Assembly: GCA_034401795.1 (NCBI GenBank)
Contig: CM067373.1
Span: 86,028,021-86,092,020, forward strand
Direction of reading: 5' to 3'
Length of the DNA: 64,000 nucleotides
Source: Chaetoderma sp. LZ-2023a
Lineage: Eukaryota; Mollusca; Caudofoveata; Chaetodermatida; Chaetodermatidae
Position numbers and translations under genes: made by a program
The notes under the pieces: model-generated
Databases searched by the model: none
What the model was told of the DNA's origin: nothing
Seen by the model: only the letters and a program-made list of their open reading frames with translations
Shown here: positions 7,901-56,039 of the stretch, in pieces
Layout of the letters: each line of letters starts with the position of its first letter
Position numbering within the stretch: the stretch's first letter is position 1

Positions 7901-10900
7901 GTTCAGGGATGGGATCGATCGATCCCAACACAGGCAAAGTGTGGATGGGGCTTAGCTAGAGATGGGAGGGGCATAGCTAAAAGTAGACTCATCATTGAGT
8001 ATAGCCTAACTATCATTTTATCATGTGTTTAACCATTTAATAACCAAATTTGGTCAAGAAAATCAAAATATGTGCTTATTGAATATCCATTCACAGGGCA
8101 TTGGAAGACTATTTTTGAAAATTTACCACTGGAATGACTGGCTCAAGCTAGTCTTGGTTCAAGCCAGTCATTCAAGTGGTAAATTTTCGAAAATAGTCTT
8201 CTCTTGGTATGCAAATGGGCATTTCTAGACCATTGCAGAAGTCGTCTTTGGTCAACTTGAGTGTTAAATGATTACGTGAGTACCAGTATTATTATTGGTC
8301 ATTGGTCAAAATTGGCCAAAAGAAATCCTGCAAATGACCATTCCTCAAGACCACTGCAGAGATCATTTTTGGCAGTCTTGACCATTAAAGGGGTAAAACA
8401 TGTCGGGTTAAATATCTACTTTTTGAATCAGAGACATTTCTGGGTAGAAAATTTCTTGTGGGTGGGAGACGTGAGATGGGGGGGGGGGGGGGGTGAGCAG
8501 GGAGACACCACCTATGGCAAAATTGCAGTGGAGGAGCACTCCCTCAATATATTTCTCACCCGCAATTTGACACCCTAAACAAGGCCTAGGTCATATATGC
8601 TTTAATAAAGACCAAAAAAAGTTGGGAGACTTTTTTGTATGGCATTTTCACACCGCTTGATTTATGCCAAAGGGTGCCATTCTACTTCAACTAAAACTGT
8701 GTCCAGGAATCACCATAGCCGCAGGTACAGAGTCAATTCCCAATCACAGTCAGATTCGCTTATTTTGCTGACTTGGAAAGTCGCATGTGTTTTCTAGTTT
8801 AAAATTTGCTCAAATTTTCGGATTTACGCGTGTTCCCGCTAATTCGTTGCCGGCATCATGGAAGGAAAGGGAAAGTCATCACAGGGGCAGGTTGTATCAA
8901 TCTAGAATTTATACATTCGTGCCGTAATGACTGATTGAAAATCTCTTAAATTGGCACATTATTCTAAAATGGTAGCCATTGTTGGAGTCGCTCCAGTACT
9001 AGTTAACTGTTTAATCTTATCCGGGTACTCGGTTAATTTCTCTTGTGACTCAGTTCCTTCCAAGATGGATGGGCCCATAGCCAAGATGGCAGCGCCCTTG
9101 ATTATTGTTATCTTATGGCTTGGCGTGTCTATGCACTCGTTTTGATGCCAGGTTTTTTAGCTCTCGCTGGATTGTCGAGGGTGTTTGTAGCGATTGGCAT
9201 TTATTTCTTGGCTTTATTAATGTTAGTTAATTACCAAGTTGTGTTTATAAAATTTCACTCTAAAAAATTTCAAATATTTCCTGCCTAAAGGCTTGATTAT
9301 CATTAATTTAAGAGAAATGTAATTCTATTCTTACAATCAAGTCAATTGTGCATATTGCTCGTCATCGTATGTCGTGTGCAGCGTTTTAATTCTTACTGTG
9401 TGTTCGCAGAAGAGAAAGAACCAGGACACTCTGTGTCAAAAGTGTAACAGGTTCATGAAGCGCAAGTTCAGTGGTCATCACTGTGTGGCTTGTGCGAAGT
9501 GCAAAGTTGGAAGTCCTTGTGACGTGTGCGCGAAGTGGTCGTCGGAGTTGGTGGCAGAATTCGATCATGATCGACGTGCGCGTTTGGAGAGAATCGCGAG
9601 GGACAAGGCGGCCAAGCTGGATCAGGCATCAGTAAACGGTCTTGAAGAGCGTCTGAACGAGCGGATGGACTCAGCATTGGGCATATGGGCGGCCCAGTTT
9701 AAGGCAATGTTTGAGTCCATGCAGTCCACGATCCCGATGATGCAGGCTGGTGCAGGGCAACCTTTCGGTGGTCCGGCTAGTTCTGCGGAGGGACGAGCAC
9801 CTGTCCCTTCTCCAACCTTGGCTCAAGCGCCGACGGCGGAGGAGGAAGATCTGCTTATGGAAGATTCCGGCATGCCGGATATTTTGTTAACGGCACAACC
9901 AGGTACATCCTAGGGATCTCCCTCGGGTTTTGTAGGGGTCTGCCAGGCGGGTGGTGATGTCGACGTTCCGTCGGGCATTTTTCATCCGGATTTCGCTCAA
10001 CCCGCATTGTCGTTGGAGCCGTGTTTTGCGGTTCCTAATGGCATCCCGGCAGCGTTAGGTGCGGCTCCTCTCGGAGTTCCATCATCTACCGTAGTGAAAG
10101 CGGCTGTAGTCTCGGCTCCCGTGTTGGAGCCGATGGACTGCGGTGAATCCGTGTCCGGCGATTCGCTGGACACTGGTGCCGCTAGTAATCTGGCTATGGA
10201 TGCTCTTCATGTTGGAAGAAGTGCGGCCCATAGTTCTCAGCATGGGTCGTCGGTGTCCTACTCATCCAAGGGTGAGAAGGAAGATGAGTTCTACTTCGAA
10301 TAATACTTACCAGATGTACTATTATGATAATGTCTATTATCTAGTCTAGCTCAAAATAAACAATTAAAAACTCCGCACTCTCCTGGTCCTGCCCATACTG
10401 TGTCCAGGAACTACCATAGCCGCAGGTACCGAGTCAATTCCCAATCACAGTCAGATTCGTCTATTTGTGCTTTTACAAGTCGCAGAGACACCATGCGCTT
10501 GTCCCAGGATTGCCTGGCCAGGGTGATCACCAGTTCTACTTCGAATAATACCTACCAGATGTACTATTATGATAATGTCTATTATCTAGTCTAGCTCAAA
10601 ATAAACAATTAAAAACTCTGCACTCCTGGTCCTGCCCATACTGTGTCCGGGAATTACCATAGCCGCAGGTACCGACTCAATTCCCAATCACAGTCAGATT
10701 CGTCTATTTTGCGCTTTTGTCAAGTCGCAATTTGTAGTGTGCTCAAATTTGTTAAATTTAAGAGGTTATCGGTTGTGAAAAGGATTTATATCGGTGGCTT
10801 CATGGAGGAACTGGGAAAATCATCACAGGGGCAGGTTGTATCAATCTAGAATTTATACATTCGTGCCATAATGACTGTTTGAAATTTCCTTAAATTGGCA

Positions 10901-13900
10901 CATTGTTTTAAAATGATAGCCATTGTTGGAGTCGCTTCTGTACCCGTTAACTTTTAGTTTTAATTCGGGTACTCGGTTAATTTCTCTTGCGACTCGGTTC
11001 CTCTAAAGATGGATGCGTCCTTAGCCAAGATGGCGGCGCCCATGAATTATGTCTTGCTTGGCTTGGCGTGTCTAGGCACTCTGTTTGCGCCAATTTTTAG
11101 CTCTCGCTTCATTGTCGAGGGTGTTTGTAGCGATCGGCGTTGTATTCTTGGTTGTTTAACGTTGGTTAACTGCTAAGTTGTGTGTTTTTTAATTTTCACT
11201 CAAAAAAAGTTTCAAATATTTCCTGCCTGAAGGCTTGATTATCATTAATTTAAGAGAAAGTTAATGTGTTTCTAAGAAAATCTTTTAACAATCAAGTCGA
11301 TTGTGCGTATTGCCCGTCATCGTTTGTCATGTGCAGTGTTTTAATTCTTCTCTGTATTCGCAGAAACCAAAGAACCTGGATACTCTCTGCCAGAAATGCA
11401 ACAGGTTCATGAAGCGCAAGTACTCAGGACATCACTGTGTAGAGTGCGCAAAGTGTAAGGTTGGAAGCCCGTGTGATGTGTGCGCCAAGTGGTCGTCGGC
11501 AATGGTGGCAGAGTTTGATAGGGATCGACATGCGCGTCTGGAGAGGATCGCGAGGGACAAGGCGGCGAAGCTGGACCAGGCGTCTCTGAAGGGACTGGAA
11601 GGTCGTCTGAATGACCGCATGGATTCAGCTCTGGGTGTATGGGCGGCCCAGTTCAAGGCAATGTTCGATTCATTGCAGTACACGGTCCCGTCGATGCAAG
11701 CTAGTGCAGGACAACCCTTAGGTGGTCCGGCTAGTTCTGCGGAGGGTCAAGCACCTGCCCCTTCTCTGTCCGTGGCTCAAGAGCCTACGATAGAGGAGGA
11801 AGATCTTCTTATGGAGGATTCCGGCATGCCGGATATTTCGAAAAGGGCAATGCCTAGTACCTCCCAGGGGTCTCCCTCGGGATTTGTATGGGTTTGCCAG
11901 GCGGATGGAGATCTCGACGTTCCGTCAGGTATTTTCCATCCGCTGTTTGTGCAACCAGGGGTGTCGGCGGAGCCGTGTTTTGCGGCTCCTGCCGGTATCC
12001 CGGCGGCTTTGGGTGCGGCTCCTATCGGAGTGCCGTCACCTGCCGTGAGTAAAGCGGTCGTGGTCCCGTCTCCCGTGCTGGAGCCGATGGACTGCGGAGA
12101 ATCCGGGTCCGGCGATTCGTTGGAGACCGGTGCCGCTGGTAGTCGAGCTATGGATGCGATCTGTCTTGGCAGAGAGGTGTCTCGTAGCTCTCAGCATTGA
12201 TCGTCGGTGGCCCTCTCATCTAAGGGAGAGAGGGAGGATGAAAACGGGAGTTCTTTAATGGACGAGTCCGTTTTCTGCACCGAGGCTGAATGGGTGCAGG
12301 TCCTTGGATGGATGTCCGATCGTCTCGGGTTGTCATCTGTTCTGGGATCTCAGCGCGATCCGGCGATGGAGCGGATGTCAGAGCGAGCGGCTAGCGCTCT
12401 GTCAAGTGGCTCTTCTGCCATGCCAACACTCCCTTTGGACACGCAGACTTCCGACATGCTGGAAGTTGCGGCATACCGTCTGATGCAGCCGGAGTATGCA
12501 TTTCCCAAGGCCACGAAGGGGATAAGGAGTAGGGTCCGTTTTCCGGAGCTGGCCTATCATCAGTATGCCCAGGTCCCACGGCTTTCCGTCGGGGAACGAG
12601 AGGCGCTAAATAGCCCATTGGCTGGGAAGGCTAAGGGGCGGTCTCGTCCTTTGGTTTCACAGACCAATAAAGACCCGTTCAATGAGCTCACGCTCATTGA
12701 AGATGCGGCGAGGGCAGCCATGGCTGCGCTCTTGCACGGGTGTACTGTCCTGCAGGGTATGCTGGCCTGCACGGCGGAAGGTGGACAGGTGCCAGAGGCT
12801 GCTCCCGGAGTTATTTGGGACACCATGCGCCTGTCTCAAGATTGCCTGGCCAGGGTGATCACAAGGACATTGGCAGAGCGACGGAGAATGGTTCTCGATT
12901 GTGTAGAACCAGGACCGGAGATGAGGGCTGCATTATCTTCTGCGCCTTTCATCGGTCCAGGCTTGTTCGGCGGCTCGGCATGGCAAGCTCTCTCCAAGGT
13001 TGCGTCAATGGTTGCGGAGCAAGAAGTGGTCGGCAAGTCGTGGAAGTCGACTAAAAGGACACAGCCGCAGCAGTCCTACCGCCAACAGACAGGAGCAGCA
13101 GAGGCAGCGTCCAAGATCGCCCTTCCGTCCTTCTGGCCGTGATGCCCATAGGCCATCCGGATCACAAGGACCTGGCCATTCGTCCTCATACAAGTCCTCT
13201 AATAAGAGGCCGTATGAGGATGATAAGAAGGGTGGCGGTTCGGGCCGCAGCGGCTACCATAAGGATAGCCGTGGCGGCTGTTCCGGACCGTCGCATTACA
13301 AGAAGCCGCGGGGTGGCTGTGGAGGTCGTTCCTGACGGGTTTCCGGCGGAACCAGATCCGGTAACATTAGGAGCGAATGGAGTCGAGAATCTTCACCCAA
13401 GCGATTTAGCGTCTTCTTGTGCAATCTTGACCGACAGCTGTGTGCAGATTCCTTCCGTCGGAGGCAGACTTCAACTGTTCCTAAACCAATGGGAACAGGT
13501 CGTGCACGATTGTTTAGTCTGTCAGTGGATAAGAAACGGCTACGATCCGGACTGGCTCATCCATTAATCGTTAGTTCCGTTAACATCGACTCCAATATGG
13601 ACTCCTGTTCCAAGGGAATCAGATCGTCTGGACACCATTTGCTCAGAAATAGAATCGCTTCGTCAGAAGAATGTGATTCATCTAGTCCGCAATCAGTCTT
13701 CTCTGGGCTTTTATTCGATCATGTTCCTCATTCCGAAGAGTACCGGAGGATGGAGACCAATTCTCAATCTCAAACCGTTGAACAAATTTATTCTTTCTCC
13801 CAAATTTCAGATGGAGACTAGCAGCGGTAATGACAGGACTGAGGAAAGGCATGTGGGCAGTGTCGATAGATCTGAAGGATGCATATTTTCATATTCCAAT

Positions 13901-16900
13901 GTCAATTCCTTTTCAGAAATACCTTCGCTTTGCATTCCAAGACAATGTTTGGGAATTCAATGCGCTTCCATTCGGCCTGACCACAGCTCCGAGGGTCTTC
14001 ACCAAGGTGGTTCTCACAATGACTTCTTTACTTCGCAGGAGAAACATAGCTGTTCACACTTACATAGACGACTGGCTGCTAAAGGTGGGGAATCCAGTGC
14101 AATCTTCAGGTAGTCCTAGCCTTATTAATGGATCTAGGATGGATTGTGAATCTAGAGAAATCAGAACTGACTCCATCCCAGGAGTTTGTTTATCTGGGAA
14201 TATTTTTCAATCTCGGGGACGGCGTAGCTTTTCCGGCGGAAAGCAGAGTCAAAAGCCTGATTGCAGTTTTGGAGTCGGTTTCTCTAGGAGCCTATCTGAC
14301 GGCGCGCCAATTTCTCAGGATACTGGGTTTTCTAGTATCGCTGGAGAAGGTGGTTCCATATGCGGCACTCAGGCGCAGGCCAATTCAGATGTACCTAATG
14401 TCATTCTGGTCTCAGAGAACAGATCCGTTATCTCTGAGGATACCAGTAAAAGAACCATTGATATTCCACCTTCAGTGGTGGTTATCAGAACAGAATCTCC
14501 TGCGAGGTGTTCCTCTACAACCTCCTCAACCTCAGATGTCCATCTTCACGGATGCATCATTGACGGGTTGGGGAGCGATATTGGATGATCAGTCAGTGTC
14601 AGGGGAATGGGATCGGACCAATGCGCAGAAACATATCAATGTGCTCGAACTATTAGCTGTGGTATTTGCACTTCGAAAGTTTGAGAGTCTAATTCAAGAC
14701 AAAACAGTGGTGTCTTATTTGAACCGCCAGGGCGGGACGAGATCACCAGAGTTGTGTATGATGGTTTGGAACCTTCTGCTGTGGTGCCAAGAGAGGAATA
14801 TTATTCTTCGGGCAGCACACATTCCAGGAAGATTGAACATCCTAGCGGATGCTCTCAGTCGAAGGACGATTTGTCGTCCGACAGAATGGCAGCTCAACCA
14901 ATCGGTAGCGGAGGTTCTATTCAAACAATGGGGCAAGCCAAATTTCGACCTGTTTGCGATGAATCAGAACGCAAAGATGGTCACTTACGTGTCACCGATC
15001 CTGGACCCGCTAGCGCTAGCGGTAGACGCACTGGCGATAAGTTGGAAAGGAATGTACGCGTATGCGTATCCTCCAACAATTCTCATCCCGAAAGTTCTGG
15101 CAAAGATAAGAGAGGGGATGTGCCAAGTACTGCTGATCGCCCTTTATTGGTCAGGCCGATCATGGTTTACGGATCTGCTGGACCATCTGGTCTGCAATCC
15201 AATCCCTCTTCCAGACAGAAGAGATCTAATCTCTCAGAACAGGGGTCTGTACCTTCACGACAGACCGGAAATGTTCAAATTGACTGCATGGATGTTATCA
15301 GCGTGCAATTGAGGGTGGCTTTTCTGAGCAAGCAGCGAAGTTTGTTGCTTCGGCCAGAAGAGTTTCAACCACAAAGACATATAATTATAGAATCAACAAA
15401 TTTGCACAGTGGTGTGAGAGAAGAGATATTAATCCCTTTTCTGCATCTGTTCAACACGTAGCAGATTTTATCTGTCATTTATACGAAGTTGACAAACTTG
15501 TACCTTCTACCCTAGCAGCATATAAGTCTGCATTAGCTTCAGTCACTCCCAGTCTGGCCATTGAAAGAGTGGAGAATGACACCTTGCATGAAGTTATTAA
15601 AGGAATGAGCAATCTGCGACCTAGACAGCCAATTCCTATCCCAGCATAGAATCTATCTCTTGTTCTACAGGTTTTAGGGCATGCTCCCTTTGAACCAATT
15701 AGATCTATAGACATTAAACTGTTAACTATTAAATCAGTTTTCTTAGCTGCAGCAGCGGCGGCGAGAAGGAGAAGCGAAATACATGCGCTTTCTGCCGAAC
15801 AAGACCGTTTTGTCGTCACGGGTGAAGGTTTAAGACTACTTCCACATCTTTGTTTCCTGGCAAAGAATCAGTCACTTAAATATCCAGGACAGCCGATCAA
15901 TTTGCCAGGTTTAACTAGACATGACCCAAACTCTTCTGCTTGGTGTCCTGTCAGATGTCTGAAAATGTATAAGAAACGTACTGATGAGTGGAGAGATGAC
16001 CCGAAATGTCTGTGGTTATGTCTCAAAGCTCCTCATTTACGAGCGTCGAAAGATACTATTTCTCGTTGGATAGTTGACGCTATTCAGATGTCGCACAAAA
16101 TCGCTACAGGAAAGCAGATTGATCGTGCGAATGCCCATCAGGTCCGAGCACTAGCAGCAGCATCGGCCCTTTATACGGGTGTCTCATTAGAGGAGGTGAT
16201 GTCTGTAGCACAATGGCTTGCCGAGTCGTCATTCACTGATTTCTACCTTCGCGACATCGCCAGCGCACTTAATCCAGTAGCCCTCACCAATTTGTCGAAT
16301 CTAACCTAAGCCACTTCCGACCACTACTTCGCACACATCACAAAGTCTTCCACCTACACTGAACAATTGCTATGCACATGACTGAGTACAACCGTGGATT
16401 GGGCCGAGCTCCTGTGATGATCAAGAAAAGATCAAGCACTCAAAATGGTGAGTGTTTACATTAATTAAGTGACTATAAATATGTTTACTTACAGTCGAAA
16501 TACCAGACTGCTTAGGTAAATAGTCTGGTACAAGAGTATTCTTATCCTCTCAAACAGACATTAGACTCATTCCAATTTGAAAATCTAATCGATATAGATG
16601 TTTTTTCAAAATTAGAAGTTGTAGTAGCTTCTTTGCACTCTACTGGACGGCCCTAGCTGAGACTTGGGGCTGACACGAGTCTGGTGGGTGTTGCATCCCC
16701 ATTGACAGCCCTCTGAATTTTGTGCGGACAAAAGAGGGGGGGGAGCGCGGTCTAGACGATGGAAGTTTAGCACTCTATGAGTCAGATGGCAGAACCCAAG
16801 CGTATGCCAGGGTTCTAGTCTCTTCACAACCTTCTCTGTTGGATGGTAGATGAGTGCTGGTTCGAGCCTCATAATAGTACATCTGGTAAGTATTAGTCGA

Positions 16901-22900: not shown

Positions 22901-25900
22901 GGTAAGAGAATATAATATTTTGTGAATAAAAATTTAACTGACAAACAGACTGATAATCTGACCGACAGACCACACACTAACTCAGCCTAACTCTTGACCA
23001 AGTAATTAAAACTGATTAATAGCTAATCCTTCAGTTACAGTCTATATGTTTTCTACAGTTAAATAATTTTGCAAACAAATACACTGCCTTATTTAAAAAT
23101 AAATTAAATAAACAAGGCAATCAAAGGGTTACCACCTTAGTTAGTCTATTACTGTGAGATCTTTATAGGACAGCAGTGTTGTTCAAGAGCAGACCCCTTT
23201 ATTGATTGTGTGAGGTGATAACACCTGTGGTGTTACATAACAGTTAAGCAGTCAGGTAGTTAATTGGCTTAATTTGGACACATTAACCTTATCACTGCAT
23301 AGTACTGTAATTTTAATCCCAAATTCCTAAAAAGATTTATGTCAGAAAACTATAGTGAGACTCATCTAAAAACTACTAAATATTTTGAAAACAATTTGAC
23401 TGAAACTTCTTGGTGAGTAAATCACCAACAACTTTCAGTCAAATTGTTTTCACACTATTTAGCAGGTTTTGAGTAATGCAGCTTGAAACTATTCTCAAGT
23501 AGCTCAGAGCAGTCAGCCAGTTAACCCTTAGCACACTAATGTCAACATTATCCCACATGTGTCTACCTTTCCTGGCTGAAACAGTAATATTGCTAAATTA
23601 ATAACTAAAAAAATTTACTTGAATATTTTGAAAACAATTTGACTGAAACTTCTTGGTGAATAAATCACCAACAACTTTGAGTTATATTGTTTTCACACTA
23701 TTTAGCAGGTTTTGAGTAATGCAGCTTGAAACTATTCTCAAGTAGCTCAGAGCAGTCAGCCAGTTAACCCTTAGCACACTAATGTCAACATTATCCCACA
23801 TGTGTCTACCTTTCCTGGCTGATACAGTAATATTTTATTTTGCAGGTCTAGACCACTATGTTTTGAGAACATCCCAAATTGAGAAAGACGCCATCGATGA
23901 GCAAGTCGGTCGCTACGTGTACGCTACTAACACACCATTCTCTGCAGTCACACATCCAGAGTTCATTAAACTAGTCCAGATGCTGAGACCAGGCTACTGT
24001 CCACCAAGTCTGTATGAAGTAGCCAGTAGTTTACTGGACAAGGTTCAGCAGTCACTGCAGGATGAGTGTAAAGAAAGGCTTGAAGGCAAGACTGTCTCCA
24101 TGTGTTTAGATGGTTGGAGTAATATACATAATGAACCTGTAGTTTGTGTCTCTGTAACCACTTCGGATGGTGATTCCTATCTTACTGAGACTGTGGATAC
24201 GTCAGGCCACAGTCACACTGCTGAGTACATGAAACAGGTTGCTAGTAGTGCTATTAAACATTGCGAAGAACAGTTTAAATGTAACATAGGTAGCATTGTA
24301 ACTGACAATGCGGCTAACATGCGTAAGATGCGTGAAGAACTGAAGAAAGACCACAAAGACATTATTGCCCATGGATGTTCAGCCCACCTCATGAACCTAC
24401 TTGCTCATGACATAGAGATCAAGGGTGTTAAGGAACACGTCACACAGATTGTGAAGTACTTTCGCAATACACATTTACCAGCAGCATGGTACAAGGCAGA
24501 GGGAGGCAAGCGACTCGTCCTACCACAAGATGTCCGCTGGAATACGCTAGCTGACTGCCTTCAGTGCTACCTGGATAACTGGTCCATCATTTTGAAAGTG
24601 TGTGAGGAAAATAGGGATAGTATAGACACAAATGTGGCTAGTAAAGTGCAAAATATTGGGATAAAGAGACAAGCAGAGGACTATTTGAGGCTCCTTAAGC
24701 CAATCTCCATTGCCCTGGATATAGTACAGAGTGATAGCTGTTTTCTCAGTGATGCAGTTAGTGTATGGAAGAAGTTGGAAAAAGACTTTGAAGAAGGTGG
24801 GGTATCATTAAGCATTATGAAGAAGTTCCACGAACGATGTAAGCAGGCACTCACTCCTGCCCACTATCTCGCCTATATTTTGGATCCGCGTACTGCTGGT
24901 AAAGGATTGTCTACCAAGGAAACTGACAGTGTGATGGAGTATGTGTCTGTGTCATCCCCAGACATGATACCTATAATCATGAACTACCGGGCCAGAGCAG
25001 ATCCATTTAAGGATTACTTGTTTAGTTCATCTGTTCTGGAATCTGTGTCTCCCTTTGCCTGGTGGAAATCTCTATCAGACAGAGTCAGTGACCATGTGCT
25101 AAACATGATATATGCAATACTTGGTGCTACTGCCTCTAGTGCAGGTGTTGAGAGAATATTCTCAACTTTTGGTTTTGTGCATTCAAAAGTGAGAAACCGT
25201 CTTGGTACTGAGAAAGCTGGCAAGCTTGTTTTTGTTTACAAGTTACTTAACAAATGAATCATCATATACATGTATAACTATATTGATCTGATTTGAAATA
25301 AATTAATTAAATTGACTTAAAATTGCATATCTTATCATTAATTAGTAATATAAAAAACATGGTTATAAAAATCTGATTTAAATCAAAAAAATCGATTAAA
25401 ATCAAAAAAATCCGATTTTTTTGATTTTTATAAAAAAAATCATGATTTTTATCAACCCTGGTTTGGCGGCCATATTGGACTTGCAAAAATGTCCACATAC
25501 TCATTTAAAAGACTACTCTTAAATAACCCACCAACAATTTTAACAAAAAATTAGAGTGCTCCAGGAGTCTAGGTGAGCGACACAGGCCCCTTGGGCCTCT
25601 TCTTTAAATTACCTGTTAAATTCCTGTGGCGGATATGTTTGGCGAACTGATATTTGATTGCTTTAATAAAGCAGTCTAATTGTGTATTCGCTCCCAGTGC
25701 GGGTGTGGAGTTTGATTTTGGCATAAACTTTCTTGAGCAAGTTTTCCAGTTGGGTGGCTTGCGTGTCACGGGAGGAGGTGCGGAAGTAGGTAGGGGTGGG
25801 TTGCTCTGGGTGGTGCTCATGTCTTGGGTGGCACATCTTTTGAGAACCAATCACTGCCTACATATTTATTTAAGTCTAGGTCATATATGCCTTCATCTGG

Positions 25901-28900
25901 CCCTAGATCATGAGAGCCCCATAAATGGGTGGAAATTTAATAATTCATTTGTCTAAATGGTAATATAGATTGTGTAATATGTACTCATTGTACACGTTTC
26001 AAGACATAGTGAGGTTGTATTATCACATCACATTGTGGATGTATATGTTTTTGTATGAAGAGGGGTGTGTGGGGGTGTTGGTGTTGTTAGAAATTTATGG
26101 ACTCCAGGCACGTTTCTATTTTATACTCATTTCTGTTTCAGATTTATCCATCTAAGGACAATGTACGTTTGTCTTTAGAGGGCTTTATGGCGGGAGGATC
26201 CTTGCCATACAGTATCAAGGTTGCCAAGAAACAGGAATACATTCATAGTTACTTCCAGTAGGTGTGGTTACCTGTATACTGATTAGTTGAGGAATAGAAA
26301 GATTGTGAACAATATATTGAAATTACTTTACCAGGAAGCTGTTGCTGCTTAAGCCAATAACAGCTTCTCGACAAAGTAATTTCAAAATAGTCAATAGTTT
26401 AATGTTGTATTTCATTGTCACATTGTGTACGCGCAATACCCACAACCCAGCCCACTTAGCAACCAAGATTTCTTCTATCATTGCGCAATGCCCACCCCGC
26501 CCCACTTATCAAGATCTCTCATCATTACACAATGCCAACCCCACTTCACTTACAAACATTTCTTCTGACACTACTGTGACAATATGGTGACATATCTATC
26601 TCATGGTTTTTGTCACACCCTACATGAAGTGGTTTCAATGGGCGTTTACTTCACCCAGGCATTATCCGATTTCAATAAGACATTAGTTTTAATCTTTGCC
26701 ATGATTGAATCCATTCTGCAGTACGAATTTACCTACATGATATGGCATTTAGTTCAACTTTTGTTCTATATAGGGATCACAAACAGAGGCATCTAAATGT
26801 ATACAGATAAATTGTGCACCATCTGCATATCATTAAGACTTGCTTGGGCCAATATTGCTTGCCCTGCAAGTATGGTAGGAAGTTAGGGCTTATGGTTCAG
26901 TCTATAGACTATATGCTTATGGCTTCCTCATCGAACCATACCCTTTCAAGATCAAACTATCCAGGGGTCGATCATTTTCAATGTTATCCTCCATAATACT
27001 CAGCTTCCATAGCACTGAGGCATCAGATATTCTCCCTGGCATACCATGACCAGCCATATACGATACCATGACCTACATGTATGTAATACCATACCGGAAA
27101 ATATCAAAACCAATGGAGGAATCCAGTTTTTGCTATGCCCCACCAACCTTTAGCTAAGCTCCACCCACACTTCACCGTGTTGCGATCTATCGATCTCCGA
27201 ATGCCCTGACTATCAGTTTCCAGAAAACTATACAGGTAAGCTGTTGAATATTTTGAAACTAATTTGACTATGGCAGCAACAGCTCCCAATCAAATTAGTT
27301 TCAAAATATTCAACAGCATGTTTATTAAATAGTAAAGACATGCAATATGTACAGCAACTATTAGCCTGTCATCAATTATGCGTTTGTAACGAGCTTATCT
27401 ACGTCATTCATGCTGTAATTGATTATGACATCATCCTACACATCATGTGGTTGATTATGATGTCATATGATGGGCAGATAAACTGGAAAGGCCCATTGTG
27501 TGACACTGTCACATATGATGTGTGATGTGGAAAAATAAAAAGTGGCAGATTTAGACACACGGGATGCAGTCTTTCTAGTGATGCACTATATATCATGATA
27601 TTGTCTGTGGCAAAATTGTGCACACAGCCTAAAGGTTTCACGTCAGAGTGCCTGTAAGCTAGGCCTGTAACAATGCGCATCATGTATTGCAATATTAGCC
27701 ATGGCAATACACATAATATTGTGAAGCGTGCATCTTGATATAATAACGGTACACCATGATTAGCAACATATTTTTCAAAATTAAGTATACTATAATCTAC
27801 ATTGTCATTGGCTAAAATTAGAATTTTTGCCAATATATCAATGGGTTCCGTTACGCCGTCTGTCTGTCCGAGTCATCAGCGTTACACTGATGTGATATGG
27901 GCGACATTATTTATTTCCAAATACAAATCTAGTTTTGTATCAAGATTACAAAGAAGAAGTCTGAATGTCTTTGTGCTGCTCCGACTGGTTGAGGTATAGA
28001 CTAGTAGAATAAGCCCATTTTTTGGGCGACCTGGGAAAAAATTTCCATTGTTATCAATTCCTGCTCATTTTTTATCTTCACTATCTCTAGTATCCCAGAA
28101 AAAAAGTCCTGACCAATATGTCTTGGGCGGAATTTTTTACACCACTTTGAAATCTTCCTACTTTCAAATTTCTTGCAGTGCCTTATTATAGGGTGCACGG
28201 GGGCAAATTCAAATTTCTGACGTTTCCGTACGATTAGCGTGCTGAAAATTGGCATACATTTCGAAGATCCAATAATAAGAAAGTTAGCGAATAAATTTGT
28301 TCAGGACAATACATCGTTTACAAATATAGCCAAGTTAGCGCGGCCTGTGGTCAAATTATGAGTAGAATTAATCATTTGTAATAATAATACATGGTCCAGG
28401 ATAATTTTAGAAACTGGCAATTAATGTAAATCAAAAGACAATTATGACTTTTGCGTGTAACAGGTTGAAATAAAGTTACCAAATATGCTTATTCACTATC
28501 ATATCGTGGTTGTGAACACGTGCTATGCTTGAATTCCTTATGGATTTTTAATACATTCAACAATGAGTTATCAATTAGATGAAAATTGCATTCCCATGCC
28601 GGGTATCTTATCTGAGGGGAATTGTGTTGTTTGTCGGGAGGTTATGGGAGATGATAAACAAAAGGTTTATAAAAAAAGGTCTTGAAACACTTATTCGTAT
28701 AAGTGGTGTTCGGGGGGATAGAGAACTGAATGAATATTTATTAGAAAGATCGGTAACGCTGCCCATTGGTAACGTGTATGTACACAAGAGATCCCGGACT
28801 GATTATACTAGGGATCCAGAAGCTGACCTGAGAAGGAGTAGAACAGATAATAACAGTGGTGTAACAACATCAAAAAGATTAAGATCAAGTACGGAGCCTT

Positions 28901-31900
28901 TTGACTGGACGGGTGGTTGCTCTTTGTGTGGGAAAACAGCAGTCTTTCAAAGACTCGGTGTCAAAGGTTACCTTGCTTGCATTCAGACACTTTGTCTTGA
29001 ATCAGTGCATGAAACGAAATGACACCTGGGCTCATCAAATTATGTTAAGAGTAGATGACTGCATGGATTTAGTTGCATCATCAGCCCAATGTCATTGCAA
29101 ATGTTATACAGATTTCTTCTGTTCTGCAAATACTACTAATGTACCAGTCGGTCGGCCAACCGATTCAAAGACGCAAAGCTGGTTTGAGGCACTTTGCCAT
29201 TGGCTGGATGATGAGGGGGTCTCAGAATAAATGGCTATCATGGAAATATGCGAGAAGATGATAGAGATATCCAGTGGTGAAGAAGTTTATGGCATTAAGA
29301 GCCTGAGAGAGAAACTGCACGACCATTACGGCAACCACATATTCTGGTCGCGAATGAAAGGGGGTCGTGAAGATGTATTATGTTTCCATGATATGGCTAG
29401 TTACATAGTACATGAGAAATGGCAATCCGAAAAGAGAGAAAATGTCAAACTAGAAACTGAAAGAATAGTTGCTACGTGTGCTAAACTACTGAAAGACGAG
29501 ATACGTCAGCGAGAGTACTCAAAAGAGTGTTATCCGAGTAGCAATGATATTAGTGATATCGGTAAAGGAAGGGAGTTTCTCACCCCACTAACTCGTATAT
29601 TTATTGAGACAATGATAGAAAATGATGTAAAAAGAAATAGCATTGGTCAAGCTCTCACTCAAGCTGCAAATGATGAGAGATCTCCTGACCAAACACCCAT
29701 GGTTGTGCAATAAATTCTCTACAGGTCACCATGCAGCTCATAGGAGTGATAAGCACTGGGCTGGATTATGGACTGATCTATGCATAGAGCGGATTCTTAT
29801 GCTATCAATGAAAGCTCGAGGAGGTCTGACACATGGTCGTGGCATATCTGAAAGCGTTAGGCATCACTGGATCTATAGCATGCATCACTGTGCAGCTGTT
29901 CATGAGGCATTGACCAGCTTAACAAATCATCAAAATGCAACAAGTGAACAACATGCGGAACTCGGTAAATCTAGGTGCAAGCGAGATTTTGTAGACATGG
30001 AGAAGATCCTAGATTGGTTTGAACAGCACAACCCATTTGATGACGAGGTGTCCACGCTAAGGTCGTTGGCAACTGGGCTAATGGCATCTGCCGATGATGG
30101 AATTAATTGTGACGTGGCTGAACAAGTGGGTTTGCAGATCCAGCAACCACTTGATGACGTGGCCTTTAGTAATGCTCACATTAAACGATCTCAACAAGTT
30201 CGTACATTGAATGACCTCCAGCCCGGTATCAAGCTCGGGAAAAAACCTATCCAGATTGAGCCGAGTGTTTTATTCTTGCGATGTACGGCACTGGCAAAAC
30301 GAGAATCCGAAGATGTCACACCTTATTTTAAGTATGAACGTTCTTCCATACCTACATCGCTGTTCAAAGACTATTTCATGCAAAAATCAGATAAATCAGA
30401 ATTAGCGAGGGATATCAAGAAAGAGCTCCACAATGTCAGCCATGAACTGACTAATGTTACAAAAGATACCATGCCAGTAATAGATGGTGGTTGGCAGCTC
30501 CATCATATTAGATGGAAAAACAATGTCACGTATCAAGAAATTGTCGAACGATATGAAACCTTTCTCAGCAATAAATATGGAAAGTGCTGTGTTGTATTCG
30601 ATGGATACGAAGGACCATCCACAAAAGACCACGAACATCTGAGGCGCTCTGGAACAACGTCCGCGGATATCACTGTCACAGATATATCAAAGTGTCACAA
30701 AAATCAAGAGGCATTTTTCTCCATCATGAGGAATATGACAGTTCATACAGCTTCTTGTTAGATTCTTACAATCTAAGGATTATATCGTTAAGTGTAGTGA
30801 TGGCGATGCAGACACCTCGATTGTATCAACTGCTCTGGACTTTTCGAAAAGCGGCCAATCAGTAATGGTTGTAGCGGAAAACACGGACATTTTTATTATG
30901 CTAATTCACCGCTGGAAAACATACATGGCTGATATATTTCTACTAAACGAGAAAAAAACAAATGGACCGAATAAAACTGTGCAGATGTACGGCCTTCGCG
31001 AAGCACATGAAGTGATGAATCCAGTATTGCACGACAACATACTGTTCATCCATGCATGGGGTGGTTGAGATACAACTTCATCTACCTTTGGACAAGGAAA
31101 AACTCATGTAATGAAAGTCTTGCCTCAACAGAGCAAACTAGTTACTAGCTCATGAAATGGCTGATACTGAGACGACACTCCAAGACGTCATTAATGTCGG
31201 TATATCTGTTTTCTGTATCCTTTATGGAGGGAAAGATTTTGAATCACTGACATCCTTGAGACATGCGTTATCAAGCAATGATTGCACGGTGTAAAAAAAT
31301 TACCTCATTACCACAGTCTGCATGTCCATCTGCAAATTGTCCAATGGGCTGAACTCGATAACAAGTTCCTTAATCCGTATGAATGGGGCTGGAAGTTGGA
31401 AAACAAGGTTATGCGCCCAGTCATGACAGATATCGATGCTGCACCTGCAAATGTTCTGAAATTTATTCGTTGTAATTGTAAAATTACTAATAAAACCAAA
31501 TGTGTAACAAGGCAATGTTCATGCTACAAATCAGGATTACACTGTGGCGGTTGCCATGGTGAAACATGTAGGAACAAGGTTGTTCCTTCCGGATGCAAAG
31601 ACTTTGGCGATGATGATGAACAAGATTTCGATTAGTGTACGGGCAAAGATAGCAGACAAGATGTGCTTCTTGGATAATCCTTTGTCAATGATTTTTACAT
31701 CTGTCAGAATCCTCAGTTCTTGTTGTTTAAAATATACCGCATTCACCTAAAGAAATATATGTCTTTAAAATTCTTGATAGAAATTATTTATTCGGTATTT
31801 TTGTATCCATTTCATTCATTTTAGTAGGGTTTATGATCGCAAGTATGCGACAAATGAATGGCTGCTGACAAAAGTAATATTTATCCATAATCCGCGCAGC

Positions 31901-34900
31901 CGTCTTGGTTTTTTCTCACGTTACCATGACTACAACTAAAGGAATCATTGACAGACTCAGAGAATATGGTATACCCGATAAATATACAGTTTCAGTGCTG
32001 TACTCCTAGACACACTGTCAGAAAAAAGGACTTTCTGTGATAATATGACCATAGGGGAGCAAGAAAACGTTGATTTCGATAACATTGCAATTTTTTTCCC
32101 AGCTTCTCCAAAATCCACTAGCCTATAACCTAATGACCATGCTTAGGTCCAATAATTTGGGCAATTCTGAAATAAAGGCAAAATAAGCTAAGCAGAAGAA
32201 TCTACTGGTAACTTAGTCTGTATTTTATACAAGTCAAATGGTACCTTGACCGTTGACCTCAATATCATTGTGCTTCATCCCCTTGAGATAAGGAAACAGG
32301 TGTCCAAGTTTAGTCCCAATAGGCTAAACCAATCCTGAGATATAAGGCAATATGTTGAGCTAAACCAAAAACTTAACCATAAAAAATTAAATTTTATACC
32401 AAGGTCAGTGACCTTGAATTTTGACCACGGTACCATTGAGGTAAGATGTAGATTTTTTTACCGAGATCACAGTGTTCTTGAACTAACTTCATGACCGAAT
32501 ACCATTGTGCTTCATCCACTGGATATAAGGAAGCATGTGTCCACGTTTAGTCCCATTCGGGTGAACCAATCCTGAGATATAAACTTAACCGAGATTGGAC
32601 ACCGACAAATAGACATACATACATACATACATACAGACAGACAGACAGAGTAATGGAACCATCAATATATTGGCAAAAATTTTAATTTCAATAACAAGCT
32701 ATTGCGCTACCATGCACATCGGTACAAACTGGGGGGGGGTTTCAACCGTAACATTTTCTGTTTATCTCAACTTAACAGTTAGATTACTCCTTAGGTATGA
32801 CTTTACAAGCCATGCCCAAATGAAATCCACCCATATTAGTGAACCCAAATCAAAATCCTACTGGCTGCCTATAAACACTAATTAACTGATTTACAGTCAA
32901 ATATATACTCAGAGATGGATGCTGTAGCATTTTATGGTCATTCAGAGGTCTTATAGTGTCATTAAAACTAAAATGGCTCAAAATTAATCCCAGATTTCAA
33001 AATTCTCTAGTTTTGTGGAGCATTGACAGATCCCGGACCTGATAGGTGGTGTGCCCAAATGAGGTAAATCTAAAGCCCTGAGAGGGTATGACACGGTTAT
33101 TTTGGAGTCAAAAGGTCAATGGTCATGGTCACTGATAAGTGTATCGATAAGCCTTCTACGTGTATTTTATAATAGAAGACAAGCTTCATAATGAAGTTCA
33201 TTGCAAAGTGGTAACGTCGAGCATCTTGGTGAAGACAGAAAATATACAAAATATAGCTTTAACAAGAAATTCAAAAAAATGCTTCACTGATGTGATTGGA
33301 TCTTTAACCCTTTACTTGTCAATCTGGCCAAATGACCTCTGCATTGGTCTTGGGAATATTGAATTGCAGGCCAAGAGAATATTTTTGACAATTTATGACT
33401 TGAATGACTGGCTCTATAACAGCATTCCTGGTGACAATAAGCAGTTAGCAGTACTACTAACATCAGTGTACAATTGAAAGGAGTTCCATCAACATGAATG
33501 TACCTGATAGAGTAAACGCCTTATTTAATTTTTTCCCATTTACCAGAAAATTGACTTTAAAGACCAAGAGAATGATATTTCTGACAATTTACCACTGGAA
33601 TTACTGGCTCGATAACCGAGCCAGTCATTCCAGTTGTAAATTTTCAAAAAAGCTTTCTCTTGGTCTACAAATGGACATTTTTTCATTAAAATAAAACATT
33701 TTTGAGCAGATTCGACCATGTATATTTCACTTTGGCAGTCAGTGGAAATCAAGTGGCCGTGGTCGAAGTCGCGCTTCCCCTCACATCAAAACGTATCTCA
33801 GGGCTTCAGATGATTGGCAGAAATTAGCCTGGTTCCTGGTCACCAGGTAAGTAAGGCCAACCAATTATACAGACATGGTTTGTAGACAGATGTGATTGAT
33901 ATTATACAAATTATGCATGAATCAAGAAAAAAATCTCAACTTTCAAAGCTTACACACACACACCTAAAATACAGAAGCAAAGTAAAAACCTACCGCACCA
34001 CTCGCAACGTAGTTTACCTACTCACATGTTCGCAATGCAAATTTCAAATCAGGATTAAAGAGCACTACAGAGATGTCAACAATCACAGGGACACCCCTGT
34101 AGCGAACCACTTTAACCAAGTGGGACACGATGCCACCTGCATCAGATACAGAACCATCGAAGTATTTTGTCACGACCCCGACAGCCATGAAGCAACTGCC
34201 TCACGCAAGGAGCATGAATCTTACTGGATCCACCAACTCCACACAATGGATCCCATTGGCATCAATCACGCAGATTGGTAACCCCCACAAACCATTCTTG
34301 TGGTCCAGAATTATACAAATAAGCACACATCATATTGTACTTTTTCCCTAAACCTTCCGAGGTATCATATCAAGGCTATCTAATGTATTCCAGGTAAGCT
34401 ATTGTTTCTGTGTCGGTTACCTATGAGAGAAATACTGACATATGATTTTGTAGCTTGGTTTGTTTCATTGCTTAAGGCTATCATAGTGCATTTTAACCAG
34501 TGCTACAATATACTCTAAAGATGTGATCATGAAAAAGTCACTATGTAACCCTTTAATCATTATGACAGTCAAAGCTTCTGCAGTGGTCTTGAAAAATGAA
34601 ATGTCCATTTGTAGAGAGCATCAAAAACCTACTTTTGAAAATTTACCCCTGGATTGACTGCCTCAATAAGCAAGCCAGTCATTCCAGTGGTATATTTGTA
34701 CTAAATAATCTTCTTGTTCTGCAAATATACATTTTGTATGAGAAAATTGAAATTTGTGATCCAATTAATGACATCAGATTGCGTTTCCTGATGATAACTC
34801 GAGTTCTATTGAAGAAATCTTTACCAATCTTGTGTTGGAGCTTGTCCATGATGGTCCGAGGAACTCTATTGATTTTGGGGTCAAACTGCCAAAGGTCAAG

Positions 34901-50841: not shown

Positions 50842-50879
50842 GGTTATATCTCCTGTTTAAACCCCTCCTATAGAGTGCT

Positions 50880-52034
50880 ATGGAACCCATATTTGCTCAC
50901 TCGACTGGTCTTGCTGACCTGGCAGATGTGTACGCCAAGGTAGAAGAGAGCGATGGCAAGTCATTCACCCTACAGTATGAAGCAAACTCAAAGGCATTCT
51001 CCCTCCACCCCATTGGTGGTGATGGGCTGGAGCTGCTCACAGACCTCAAGGATGTCTCGAAGGAGCGCCTGTGTCGCAACATAGATGGCCACAAGATCGT
51101 GTTTCGGTATGATTTCCCGAAGAGGAAGTACATCCTCGAGCCGTTGATTGAGCTCTCGGATACAGCAGTGGCAGACATCAACACCCTAAATAACGACCTC
51201 AGCTTTCATCTGGTCAAACCCTATTCGAGCGGTGCCCCACCGATGACCCATGATGGTCTGCTATTGACCATGGCAAAAAACCTGCAGTTCATATTTGAGA
51301 AGAATGAAGTGTGGTACCGCGCTGGACCTGGGGGTGACTGGCAAACATGGTTGCCCCTATATAGGCCTCCCGCAGTCATTGACATAGAGGTTACTCCCCT
51401 GTCCACTGTTGTGAAAAAGGATGAGAAAGTTCGAAAGCTCTACAATCGGGGATCATCCTTCCTCATCTACATAGGTGAAGGTGTCTCCCTGACGAGGGTG
51501 GGTCACCGGATCGGGGTTACAGGTGGAAAGCTGCGTCGTCCATTCGATGGACCAGAAGAAGCTGTTAACCTCCAGGAGGGCAGCCTATGGGTAGATGGTG
51601 TGTCACATGTCTCCAAAGCCAAGGGTGCTGTTAAACTGCTTCTGCGAGTCAGCCTCACTAGCCCGCAAATGACTCATATAGTCCTAGAGCTATGCTTCTT
51701 AGCCGCCGGCAGAGTGAAGCAGCTAGCCCCTGCCCCTGAGGGGATGAAGATCACTATCGATCCGGATGGAACAGGGCTCGATCTGGCACAGATATTTCTC
51801 GAGGGGTTCACTCTGTTCAGTTTAACTTCATATATAGCCATGATTCTCATCATACTGCTCGTGCTGGCGTCTACAGCAGTGGCACAGGGCGCTGAGACTG
51901 CCATGATATTGGATGCCAAGTGGGCCCACTTCTGGGATGACCCCCAGTACAATCCTTGGGTCGACCCTTTGCGGAGAAACATTTACGACCGCTTTCACCC
52001 ACGTGAAGAGATCAAGTCTGTCTGCCACTTCTAA
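50880..52034 (+). CDS. Intact 384-aa Polinton ORF with C-terminal membrane segment
   Basis: The longest undamaged frame of the element. Residues 1-290 are soluble and strand-rich (SKAFSLHPIGGDGLEL, VWYRAGPGGDWQTWLP, IYIGEGVSLTRVGHRIGV). Residues about 313-335 (LTSYIAMILIILLVLASTAV) form one strong transmembrane helix, followed by WAHFWDDPQYNPWVDPLRR. It is the last gene before the right end. I do not recognise the family; a membrane-anchored structural protein is a guess. Confidence 0.6.
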   Translation: MEPIFAHSTGLADLADVYAKVEESDGKSFTLQYEANSKAFSLHPIGGDGLELLTDLKDVSKERLCRNIDGHKIVFRYDFPKRKYILEPLIELSDTAVADINTLNNDLSFHLVKPYSSGAPPMTHDGLLLTMAKNLQFIFEKNEVWYRAGPGGDWQTWLPLYRPPAVIDIEVTPLSTVVKKDEKVRKLYNRGSSFLIYIGEGVSLTRVGHRIGVTGGKLRRPFDGPEEAVNLQEGSLWVDGVSHVSKAKGAVKLLLRVSLTSPQMTHIVLELCFLAAGRVKQLAPAPEGMKITIDPDGTGLDLAQIFLEGFTLFSLTSYIAMILIILLVLASTAVAQGAETAMILDAKWAHFWDDPQYNPWVDPLRRNIYDRFHPREEIKSVCHF

Positions 52035-52287: not shown

Positions 52288-52515
52288 GGTTGATCACAAG
52301 GCGATCAGTGGTGTATATCACTATGGAGGCTTGTCTCTAAATGGGCGTTCAGACCCTGGTAGTAGGAGTGTCGGAATGATACTACCTCCCTCAACTGGCA
52401 GCCGTTCGGCGATCCGTGTCCCCCACTGCGGATTGAGAGGGCGGTGTGGGCCACGGATCGCAGAACGGTGGCCAGTTGAGGGAGGTGGTATTATTTTAAT
52501 CCTGACACTACTACT
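52288..52515 (-). repeat. Right Polinton end: one inverted 79-bp unit plus palindrome
   Basis: Bases 52288-52362 are the reverse complement of one 79-bp unit. Bases 52363-52515 fold on themselves: 'ctacctccctcaactggcag' pairs with 'ggccagttgagggaggtggt' and 'gttcggcgatccgtg' with 'cacggatcgcagaac'. The end mirrors 43879-44162 but lacks its internal direct repeats. Confidence 0.85.
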
Positions 52516-54902
52516 TGCCGTCATCTTGCTCAACGGATCGGTTTACACATAAGCGAAGGGAGCACATGTCAGTACATTTTAGGCTATTTACCATGCAGAA
52601 ACATTTCACGGGCAAACAAGCGCGTGTATATCTGCAGGCCAGGAGCTCAATTACCATGTCAGGGGCTGGGAGTCCACTCAACCAATCAACTGTTAGTCCA
52701 CTTCCATCACTGTATAAATTCCAACCAAAATCCTGAGGATTGGTTGTATCTTGGTATTGAACCAAACATTGTCGCCAAATACGCGCTTGATAGTTTGCTC
52801 TAAGCATGTGCTTTCTGAGAGTATCTTGGCAAGGTGGTAATTGTTCCGAGTCTACATTTCCTTTTCTTGCACAGAAGATGATGTATCGCAGCTCATTCAC
52901 CTTTGTTACTTTCTTGGACCCATACAAAGCACAGGTAAATGCCTCGAGGTCGTCGTTAAGCTCTGGAGAGACTTGGCAGTGGGTACCTAACATGTTGAAT
53001 GTTTGCTGATGACATGGGTGCGACCGTACCAGTTTTAATGCATTCAGCTTTCCACGACCAGCCATTGCTTCAACAGTGTCGCATCCTGTGAATGAATGCA
53101 ATCCAGGGAGTGCCGTACATACTTCACTACCATGGGCAGAGGCAAGGTTGCTGACATCAACATGTCTAGCCCGGTTCTCTGTCCCACGCTTAATGTATAC
53201 TGGAGCTGCTATTCTGTTTGAGTTTGCCAAGAACAATATCAGAACATCTGTATCCAAACAGCTTATGACAATTGATTTGATGCAATCAGTTACTGCATGA
53301 TCGGCATGCAAAACAACACGTGTATCTGCTTCTTCTTGATTTGTTTTCAAAGAACTTCTACACACTCATCTTCTGACAATTTGTAGCATTGACTTTCATA
53401 CGCAATGTACATTGTTTTGCCTTTAAGTCTATTTCTGAATTTCTCACTTTTCCATTCACCACAAAGAAACTGTTTAAGGCTTGTCTTATTGTTTTGGCCA
53501 CATAAAAACTTTCTCCACTGTTGGACTTTTTGACCTTCGGAAATGTTCTTTAGATGGATGGCCCCACATGCGCCTCTGTTCTCACTCCTCTCAATGTTTT
53601 TGATGAACAAGTCACGATAAACATCGAAGACAATGTCAATTCCCTTGCTATGGAAACCTTCAGCCATTACCATTGTGAATATTGTTTCAGCTAAATCGGA
53701 AAATGTTTTCTGAATGCCCTTGACCTTTTGTACTAGGTTCATGCCATCAATTATGAATGCGGATGTCTCAGGAATTATTTCTGCAAATGCAGTACCCTTC
53801 TCTAATTCCTTCCCTAAAGCTGCTTTGTTTGTTTTGCGCATTGCCCCAGCAGGCGTTACCAGGAACCATGGAATGGGTCCTAGAGGATGTTGTAAAACAC
53901 CCTTCATATCTAGCTTGCGGCTTTGTGCTATCACTGCCATGTGACCAAATAAGTTTCTGTTAGCTTTAATTATCACTTCCTTTCCTTTTGTCTTGATAGC
54001 CTTGGTTTTATTCAGACTAGATAATGTTTTAAATTGTAGCCTAGGTAGTGGATTATTAAACTTCTTGATCGGCGTAGCACTTAGGCTTTGTTCACAGAAT
54101 GCATTGTATGCATCCTCACCTTTTGATTGTGCTTCAACCAAATCTGGAATTGTATCTATTGGGACATTTCACGGCCGTTGAAAGGTTGACAAGATCTGCC
54201 ATTGTCACTAAACAGATTTATCCAGTTATTTTCAAGCATATCTAATACAGACGATACATCCGACTCGTCCCTACATATCCGTGTGGGTGTCATGTTTGGG
54301 TGACTGAAGGAATCTTTTGAAACAGAAACCATTTCCCTAAGTTGCCTGATGCATGCACTTCTATAGTCTGCATTAAGGTAATACTTCTGTGTAGCTTATT
54401 TGTTGGTGCTGAAGCCTTTTGTCCCACCGGGTTTCTGAGTATCTTTATTAACAGTTTCCTCAATTGTCTGATCCATGGGGAGTCGGGCAAATGTATTTTG
54501 AGGTCCTAGCTGGACAGAAAAATCACCAGCACAGAGTTGTTTATATATGTCCGGGTGACTGTTTGGCAAACTCACCATATTATCTAAGTACCTGGGAAGG
54601 TACCGTGCATAATTAGTTCTATCATATGTAAAGCACCAAGAGATGATTTCTCAAATTGCTGCAAGGTGTAATGACCAGTTACCTTCTCGCGATGCCCGCA
54701 GCAGGTTCAATAGAATTTGAACAAGATCAATGTATGACGACCAGAATGCTGACATGCTTCCATTGTCACTACATAGATGATTGCGGTACCTGTCAAAATC
54801 AACAGCAACCTTCACAACAGCATCACTGACAACAATAGTACTGAATGTTTCCTGAGATGTGTCATCTTTTAAAGCTGCAATTGTCGACGATACGTCGTCT
54901 AA

Positions 54903-55278
54903 AGGCTGGATTCCATAAGCGCGGAAACGGAGACGGAAACGGAAGCGGCAAAATCGATTCTATTGATTTTAATGTGTGATTCCTTAAGCACGGAACGGCA
55001 CATGAAACGGCACACAAACGGGAACGATATTTCGAGCGCTCCATGTAGCGATTCAGAAGTTGTCGGCGCGTCAACCGCGAAGGGAATTCCAAGAAATGAC
55101 GCTATATCAGGGGTATTCCTGCACGATTTTCGACTGCATAGGCACATGGTAATTGAATTTACAGACGTAGCGAATGCCGCCTCCTTTTATATGGAATCAC
55201 ACCTCGCGGCAAGCCGCACACGGTAACGCTTCCGCCTACCCCTTCCGTCTCCGTTTCCGCGCTTATGGAATCCAACCT
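54903..55278. mobile_element. 376-bp MITE with 36-bp inverted ends and TAA duplication
   Basis: The left end is AGGCTGGATTCCATAAGCGC and the right, reverse complemented, AGGTTGGATTCCATAAGCGC; the match runs 36 bp (through GGAAACGGAGACGGAA) with one mismatch. TAA flanks both sides (54900-54902, 55279-55281), as in PIF/Harbinger-type elements. It sits inside the nuclease-family pseudogene, and removing it with one TAA rejoins the frame (SNP-L-DDVSST). It carries no transposase. Confidence 0.9.
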
Positions 55279-56039
55279 TAATGGGTTGCTCGAATCTTGA
55301 TCGGGGCAGTTTGATTGGACCCATTGAGCAAATCCCTTTATAATAAATTGCATGAATGCTTCATACACTAGCTTATGAACTCGAACAGCCCGGTTGTAAT
55401 GACGCCCCTCAGTGACTGCAGAAACAGATCCTTCTGCAATGATTCCGGTTTCAATACACGAATCCCGGAATCCAGCATCTGCAAATCGCTTGACGATAAT
55501 GGCAAGTAGCATACAGGCTGTGTGGAAGCTTCCTAGTCATTCCACTATCGGTTTGAACTTCGTATTCTCTTTCCAGATAACTTCAACGACCTTTGCATAC
55601 ATAGCCTGGTAAAATAGACACACACACAATCTCGTCTAGCCGCAAAGTATCCTTAATTTTCATCGCTTGACACAAAACTTCATACACTTTATCATTAATT
55701 TTGGATGCGTAAAATTGTACTAACAAGCTACGTGTTAGTGCTTTAATAAACAAAGATTTTAAAATCTTGATGCGTATTGCTTGAATGACAGATATTGTTT
55801 TGAGCAGTTATTTGCTTTCCAATCTACTTGATGATTTAGAAAAGAAGGATGGGTTAGACAAACTGCAATATCTTTGTGGGAAATCAACCGAGCGTCATCC
55901 CATATGTCTCAAAATGTGGCCAAGATATCGGGCGATGAGGCTATTGCAATTTAATCAATCGGAATTCATGGAAAGTAATTATTTAACAAACTGATCTGAA
56001 GTTTTTGAAGAAAAAACACGAAAAAAACTTGTAACTTTA

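Follow-up and report, generated by a model that had tools for sequence, protein, structure and literature searches.

A dead, internally deleted DNA transposon of probable AcademX type in a Chaetoderma genome

The AcademX branch of the Academ superfamily of DNA transposons was reportedly described by Kapitonov and Jurka in 2010 and by Kojima in 2020, and its nuclease is of the XPG type. The available portion of one account gives target duplications of 3 or 4 base pairs (bp) for AcademX and of 9 or 10 bp for AcademH, and ties them to the nuclease and the helicase (PMC10045372); an excerpt of a second gives 3 bp for Academ (PMC5199201), and an excerpt of a bivalve study reports 100 curated Academ sequences with a mean length of 5565 bp (PMC10294476). 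We analyzed a stretch of 64,000 nucleotides from Chaetoderma sp. LZ-2023a (the window; G000:C15:86028021-86092020, contig CM067373.1, in a genome totaling 2.44 Gb), and focus here on an element at its positions 27997-32125. This element is very probably a copy, now dead and internally deleted, of a cut-and-paste DNA transposon from the AcademX branch of the Academ superfamily, where we file it because the nuclease, the 3-bp duplications and the element length match published Academ features.

The original prediction had placed a mobile element with inverted ends at these positions and had named an empty site in a paralogous host repeat. Both claims held, because the scores of the ends exceed those of shuffled sequences and the joined flanks align without a gap at the junction. 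The left end of the element opens TAGACTAG and the right end closes CTAGCCTA, with inverted-repeat arms at 28020-28055 and 32078-32113. Local alignment of the inverted 250-base ends scored 43, whereas 300 letter shuffles averaged 18.5 and never exceeded 29. Other copies across the genome share these ends, and inverted terminal repeats are also present in the longer copy L026 (end-to-end score 93). When the flanks were joined with a single TA, they aligned to 57934-58250 over 339 columns (75.5%, E = 5e-64), gap-free at the junction itself and with gaps elsewhere. The features that delimit the element are these:

27997-32125, plus strand: the mobile element, 4129 bp, an internally deleted copy of probable Academ type (ends, empty site and genomic copies).
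27997-28110, plus strand: left inverted end, imperfect, beginning TAGACTAGTAGA (local alignment of both ends).
32027-32125, minus strand: right inverted end, finishing in CTAGCCTA, shortened relative to the four longest copies by the loss of 106-108 bp after 32031.
27995-27996, no strand: left target duplication, the TA remaining of a likely TAA (flanks and empty site; one base presumably lost).
32126-32128, no strand: right target duplication, TAA (flanks and empty site).
29663-29666, no strand: junction of the 1331-1377 bp internal deletion, with CTG microhomology; the lost stretch encodes DDE-like motifs.
57934-58250, plus strand: paralogous host repeat without the insertion, with TAA at 58032-58034 (alignment to the joined flanks).

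At the insertion site, the host repeat contains an internal repeat of its own (32261-32345 and 32498-32582; 85 bp, 87% identity), and further pieces matching the host repeat lie at 58333-58770.

A TA duplication had been predicted as well, and this claim failed at the level of the family. We compared the flanks of 26 copies that have both ends: 14 of the 21 loci examined (L001 and L009-L028), the other seven (L010, L011, L017, L018, L020, L021 and L025) being dropped because one end was missing, together with 12 hand-assembled pairs. Expected counts were derived from mismatched flank pairs. Exact 3-bp duplications flanked 14 of the 26 copies, against 0.96 expected. Exact 2-bp duplications were found in 2 copies (2.40 expected) and exact 1-bp matches in 6 (6.16 expected), and a 4-bp duplication in none of the 26 (0.12 expected). 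The duplication length of the family is 3 bp, not TA, and insertion of the TA type (mariner-like) is ruled out by this test. At the left end of L023 the first letter is unaligned, and at that of L027 the first four letters. In the window copy, the left flank reads GAGGTA, the right flank TAACC and the empty site GAGGTAATTATATG; on the best reading of these letters the insertion target was TAA, and the left copy is one base short through a presumed base loss.

We then compared the window copy with the longest copies retrieved, which measure 5864 bp (L026), 5793 bp (L023), 5781 bp (L027) and 5757 bp (L028). Relative to all four, it lacks 1331-1377 bp after 29663, as well as 144-145 bp after 28271, 106-108 bp after 32031 and some smaller stretches. 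A fifth copy, L009, has no more than 776 bp left of the large stretch and 79 bp of the last one. Identity between the window copy and these five is 93.9-95.5% over aligned letters. The triplet CTG flanks the large gap on both sides in L026 and L028, the two copies read there, and also stands at the window junction, as expected for a microhomology deletion.

A genome-wide pattern search allowing up to two mismatches found one exact match to the deletion junction in 2.44 Gb, which is the window copy itself. The only other match, with two mismatches, reads CTTTAGCTGCAAATG; it looks like undeleted sequence because other copies read CTTTACCTGCAAATG there. The search is blind to copies whose junction has drifted by more than two letters. 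Among the loci retrieved, the junction occurs only in L001 and L029, both of which are the window copy. These results bear on whether the deleted form could be a non-autonomous, nuclease-only subfamily that was multiplied by the enzymes of full-length relatives. Its ends are kept, so that movement by relatives is conceivable, and other copies too carry large internal deletions, though of other kinds. A junction whose sole exact match is the window copy, and whose nearest other match appears undeleted, is not what a spreading subfamily should leave behind; up to two mismatches the search lends such a subfamily no support, and of the explanations weighed here we hold it to be the least probable.

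The stretch missing from the window copy encodes motifs, QWASDNADHDVRTLDGGNQFHGMG and ITFDQPLWQKA among them, that are reminiscent of the first and second acids of a DDE core. FDQP is kept in all nine members of an alignment drawn from nine places and reaching down to 50% identity to L026. Across six sequences, comprising these and related ones and including the protein of L082, an intact relative introduced below, both named residues of N.D, the DQ pair within FDQP or MDQA and both residues of an FH motif are invariant. An E is also paired when L082 is aligned with L059, which belongs to a sister family of the window element. We infer from this pattern that the longer copies carry a DDE-like catalytic region, whose putative acids are the aspartates in N.D and DQ and the glutamate in D.(C/A)(I/V)E; both these roles and the fold are conjectural. 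Of the three, the window copy retains only the putative third, the E of WTDLCIER (about 29787-29789). Since the longer copies hold the region and the exact junction is unique to the window, the apparent absence of a DDE region is best explained as an accident of the window copy, through deletion.

The original prediction had seen no DDE transposase and had proposed that the nuclease, or another part of the same protein, may mobilize the element. Taken by itself, the window copy invites that reading: its central region is gone, a TA stands on either side and remnants of the nuclease survive, as would befit a kind of transposon that makes TA duplications, has no DDE enzyme and is moved by its XPG/FEN-like nuclease. 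The family's 3-bp duplications, exact in 14 of 26 copies against a chance-like 2-bp count, speak against it, as does the presence of the missing region in longer copies. In addition, with a single exact occurrence of the junction in the genome, the deleted form has not multiplied as such. Such a type is already refuted for the family, and we give it almost no credence. The nuclease as sole mobilizing enzyme is likewise ruled out, because longer copies carry the DDE-like region.

An intact version of the plan exists elsewhere in the genome. The locus L082 (G000:C17:17394600-17401900) holds a single open frame of 1554 amino acids (aa); it was found by a search with a second relative in the window (52511-53362, minus strand), in which the best 137 of 12971 first-look candidates were scored. 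Places from that search list open frames of up to 1632 aa, several of them of 1554 aa. Over the DDE-like part L059 and L026 share 68% identity, and the 870-aa frame of L059 is collinear with the L082 protein over 743 aa (23% identity, E = 2e-30), in an alignment that superposes the N.D, DQ, FH and E positions. The nuclease part of another relative, L079, aligns with the L082 protein at E = 2e-21. From these two alignments it follows that one protein holds the DDE-like part and then the nuclease part, in that order.

With 40 of 142 first-look candidates scored, at least 18 copies of the L082 family, L082 included, match 1096 or more of the 1201 query bases, all at 100% identity after rounding; one further copy is in two pieces, at 99 and 100%. 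The family has inverted repeat ends of about 650 bp (86%), with the end sequences TAGTCGGTGAGCC and GGCTCACGGACTA. Of six copies checked by eye, five have matching 3-bp flanks (TGA, CAG, CTC, TAT and TTG), the exception being L091/L092 (CCC versus TCT). Judging from the identity of its copies, the L082 family, with an intact frame in at least one of them, may have been recently active. Outside this genome, the 376-aa frame of the window had no match among phages, neither it nor the L082 protein had one among viral contigs, and the L082 protein had none among prokaryotic genome contigs. Our three protein queries of the Chaetoderma genome returned 6565, 9385 and 12971 first-look candidates, of which the best 99, 100 and 137 were scored; the sets overlap and the remaining candidates are unverified.

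The second relative in the window is itself broken, extends from 52511 to about 55536 on the minus strand, and belongs to another lineage with the same plan. With the L082 protein, two of its frames share 44% and 47% identity, and a piece containing the FH motif lies at 55159-55536. Adjoining it is an open frame of 386 aa (50874-52031, plus strand) without a Pfam match at E = 0.01.

Within the element, the coding sequence survives as five remnants:

28579-29019, plus strand: remnant of the N-terminal protein part (open frame; matches the N-terminal frame of L026).
29231-29710, plus strand: remnant of the part preceding the deleted region (open frame; comparison with L026).
29631-30758, plus strand: remnant with the transposase end and its putative third acid, followed by the first nuclease half with IDGG and VFDGYEG (open frame; comparison with L026).
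30739-31065, plus strand: remnant of the second nuclease half, with ENTD where the copies read have EDTD; a stop at 31066-31068 replaces the Cys of GCDT.
31282-31632, plus strand: C-terminal remnant carrying the CXC tail (Pfam TCR, E = 4.1e-4, below the cut-off).

Single window frames cover at most half of the nuclease, and the Cys of GCDT, at whose position the window copy has a stop codon, is present in L028. The match of the CXC tail to the Pfam TCR model reaches 21 bits, under the 23.5-bit cut-off. We built a nuclease profile (A3) from seven sequences located elsewhere in the genome and two pieces of the window's second relative. Searched against PDB with a limit of E = 10, it matched 11 sequences, led by five of Exonuclease 1 (E = 3.6e-4 to 0.0096); annexins come next, from 0.045. 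The alignment pairs VFDGY with VFDGC, DAD with EAD, EDTD with EDSD and GCDT with GCDY, the Exonuclease 1 residues being what we take to be its active-site acids. A profile of all domains (A1) matched annexins and one other protein. Single-sequence PDB matches of the L082 protein (one) and of the 376-aa window frame (four) were taken as chance, as were Pfam matches to Tox-MPTase2 and Enterotoxin_HS1 below their curated cut-offs; Nipped-B_C, NYN_YacP, CHCH and similar weak Pfam matches were not used as evidence. The nuclease part is likely, if not proven, to be XPG/FEN-like. The XPG-type nuclease of the original prediction is thus borne out by the five Exonuclease 1 matches. Its description of a sole gene, an XPG-like nuclease with a CXC tail, was right about the motifs and the tail; that this is the only gene is true of the window copy alone.

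Several observations weigh against the AcademX assignment. Twelve of the 26 copies, the window copy among them, lack an exact 3-bp duplication. No frame scanned matched a Pfam DDE model, and the DDE-region profile found nothing meaningful in PDB (four reductase chains, E = 1.2); moreover, at the first motif L026 reads NNAD where the other eight of the nine sequences read DN.D. As for the nuclease, no Pfam XPG model matched any frame scanned; XPG_I matched 10 places in the genome and none of the element places listed. The single Exonuclease 1 stretch has an independent E-value of 0.0039. Compared with a FEN profile of two sequences (the FEN1 of the same genome and one archaeal FEN), the nuclease gave a weak match (probability 5.6, E = 0.0068), against a probability of 0.2 for each of two unrelated control pairings, and this comparison is suggestive only. 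Finally, the assignment was made by described features rather than by direct comparison with reference Academ proteins.

Taken as an AcademX transposon, the element suggests the following course of events. The longer relatives encode one large protein consisting of an N-terminal part, the DDE-like region, the XPG/FEN-like nuclease and the CXC tail. The N-terminal part might bind the ends; the DDE region would cut at the TAG...CTA ends and join them to staggered target DNA, and gap filling would leave the 3-bp duplications. The nuclease probably acts on the other strand or on a flap, a role at which we can only guess. The window copy inserted into the host repeat; later the 1.3-1.4 kb deletion removed its first and second putative catalytic acids, and it gained frameshifts and stops. 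With its core missing and its frames interrupted, it can neither make the enzyme nor move itself. We suggest, as a possibility we regard as rather doubtful, that the nuclease of AcademX, rather than being cargo, is a second catalytic center of transposition, which cuts the strand spared by the DDE region or trims a flap and so helps to fix the length of the 3-bp duplication. If the nuclease does take part, the L082 family, young and with an intact protein, offers a natural test system. The find in the window is itself ordinary, being a damaged copy of a known transposon type whose longer copies keep the part that seemed missing, although close cousins in the genome look recently active. It disposes of a misleading idea, that of a transposon class lacking a DDE enzyme, since the gap is a deletion in one copy, and it points to a genome rich in transposons of the DDE-like plus nuclease plan.

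Other sequences resembling mobile elements are also present in the window. A hAT-like transposase frame lies at 23746-25254 on the plus strand, with Pfam matches to DUF659 (E = 9.2e-16) and Dimer_Tnp_hAT (E = 2.7e-6), both above the cut-off. Retroelement-like frames at 14083-15309 on the plus strand, inside open frames at 9323-16309, match RT_RNaseH just under the cut-off (E = 2.8e-5); by eye, two frames, at 9323 and 11289, resemble each other and seem to repeat a single part.

Among known systems, Exonuclease 1 and FEN1 share with the nuclease the order of acidic motifs VFDG, (E)AD, ED.D and GCD in the profile alignment; they differ in that the similarity is weak, with no Pfam XPG match, and in that the nuclease is here fused to a DDE-like region. 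A CXC tail alone does not define Kyakuja-Dileera-Zisupton (KDZ) elements, and Pfam includes KDZ transposase models, none of which appeared among the matches of the frames scanned. The IS630-Tc1-mariner group resembles the window copy in the TA on both sides, a feature of this single copy, and differs from the family, whose duplications are 3 bp and not TA. AcademH shares the superfamily name and, in the excerpted description, has a helicase and duplications of 9 or 10 bp where ours are 3 bp; the frames scanned matched no helicase model, and on these two grounds the AcademH branch does not fit. An improbable reading, though better placed than the two alternatives above, is that the family forms a superfamily of its own beside Academ, with the same plan of DDE-like region, XPG-like nuclease and 3-bp duplications and no relation by descent to the Academ of Repbase. 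Our comparison with Academ by published description leaves room for it; the agreement of nuclease and duplication length with AcademX and the closeness in size to bivalve Academ, as far as the excerpts of these sources go, argue against it. We return to AcademX: the link to Academ had been drawn in the original prediction, and the published description supports it (PMC10045372). The window copy departs from AcademX in lacking the transposase core, through its private deletion, and the longer copies show no difference of kind. Like AcademX elements, the family bears a nuclease and inverted ends, its longer copies (5757-5864 bp) lie near the bivalve Academ mean given in the excerpt, and its 3-bp duplications, seen in 14 of 26 copies and in five of six of the L082 family, fall within the 3 or 4 bp that the excerpted account gives for AcademX.

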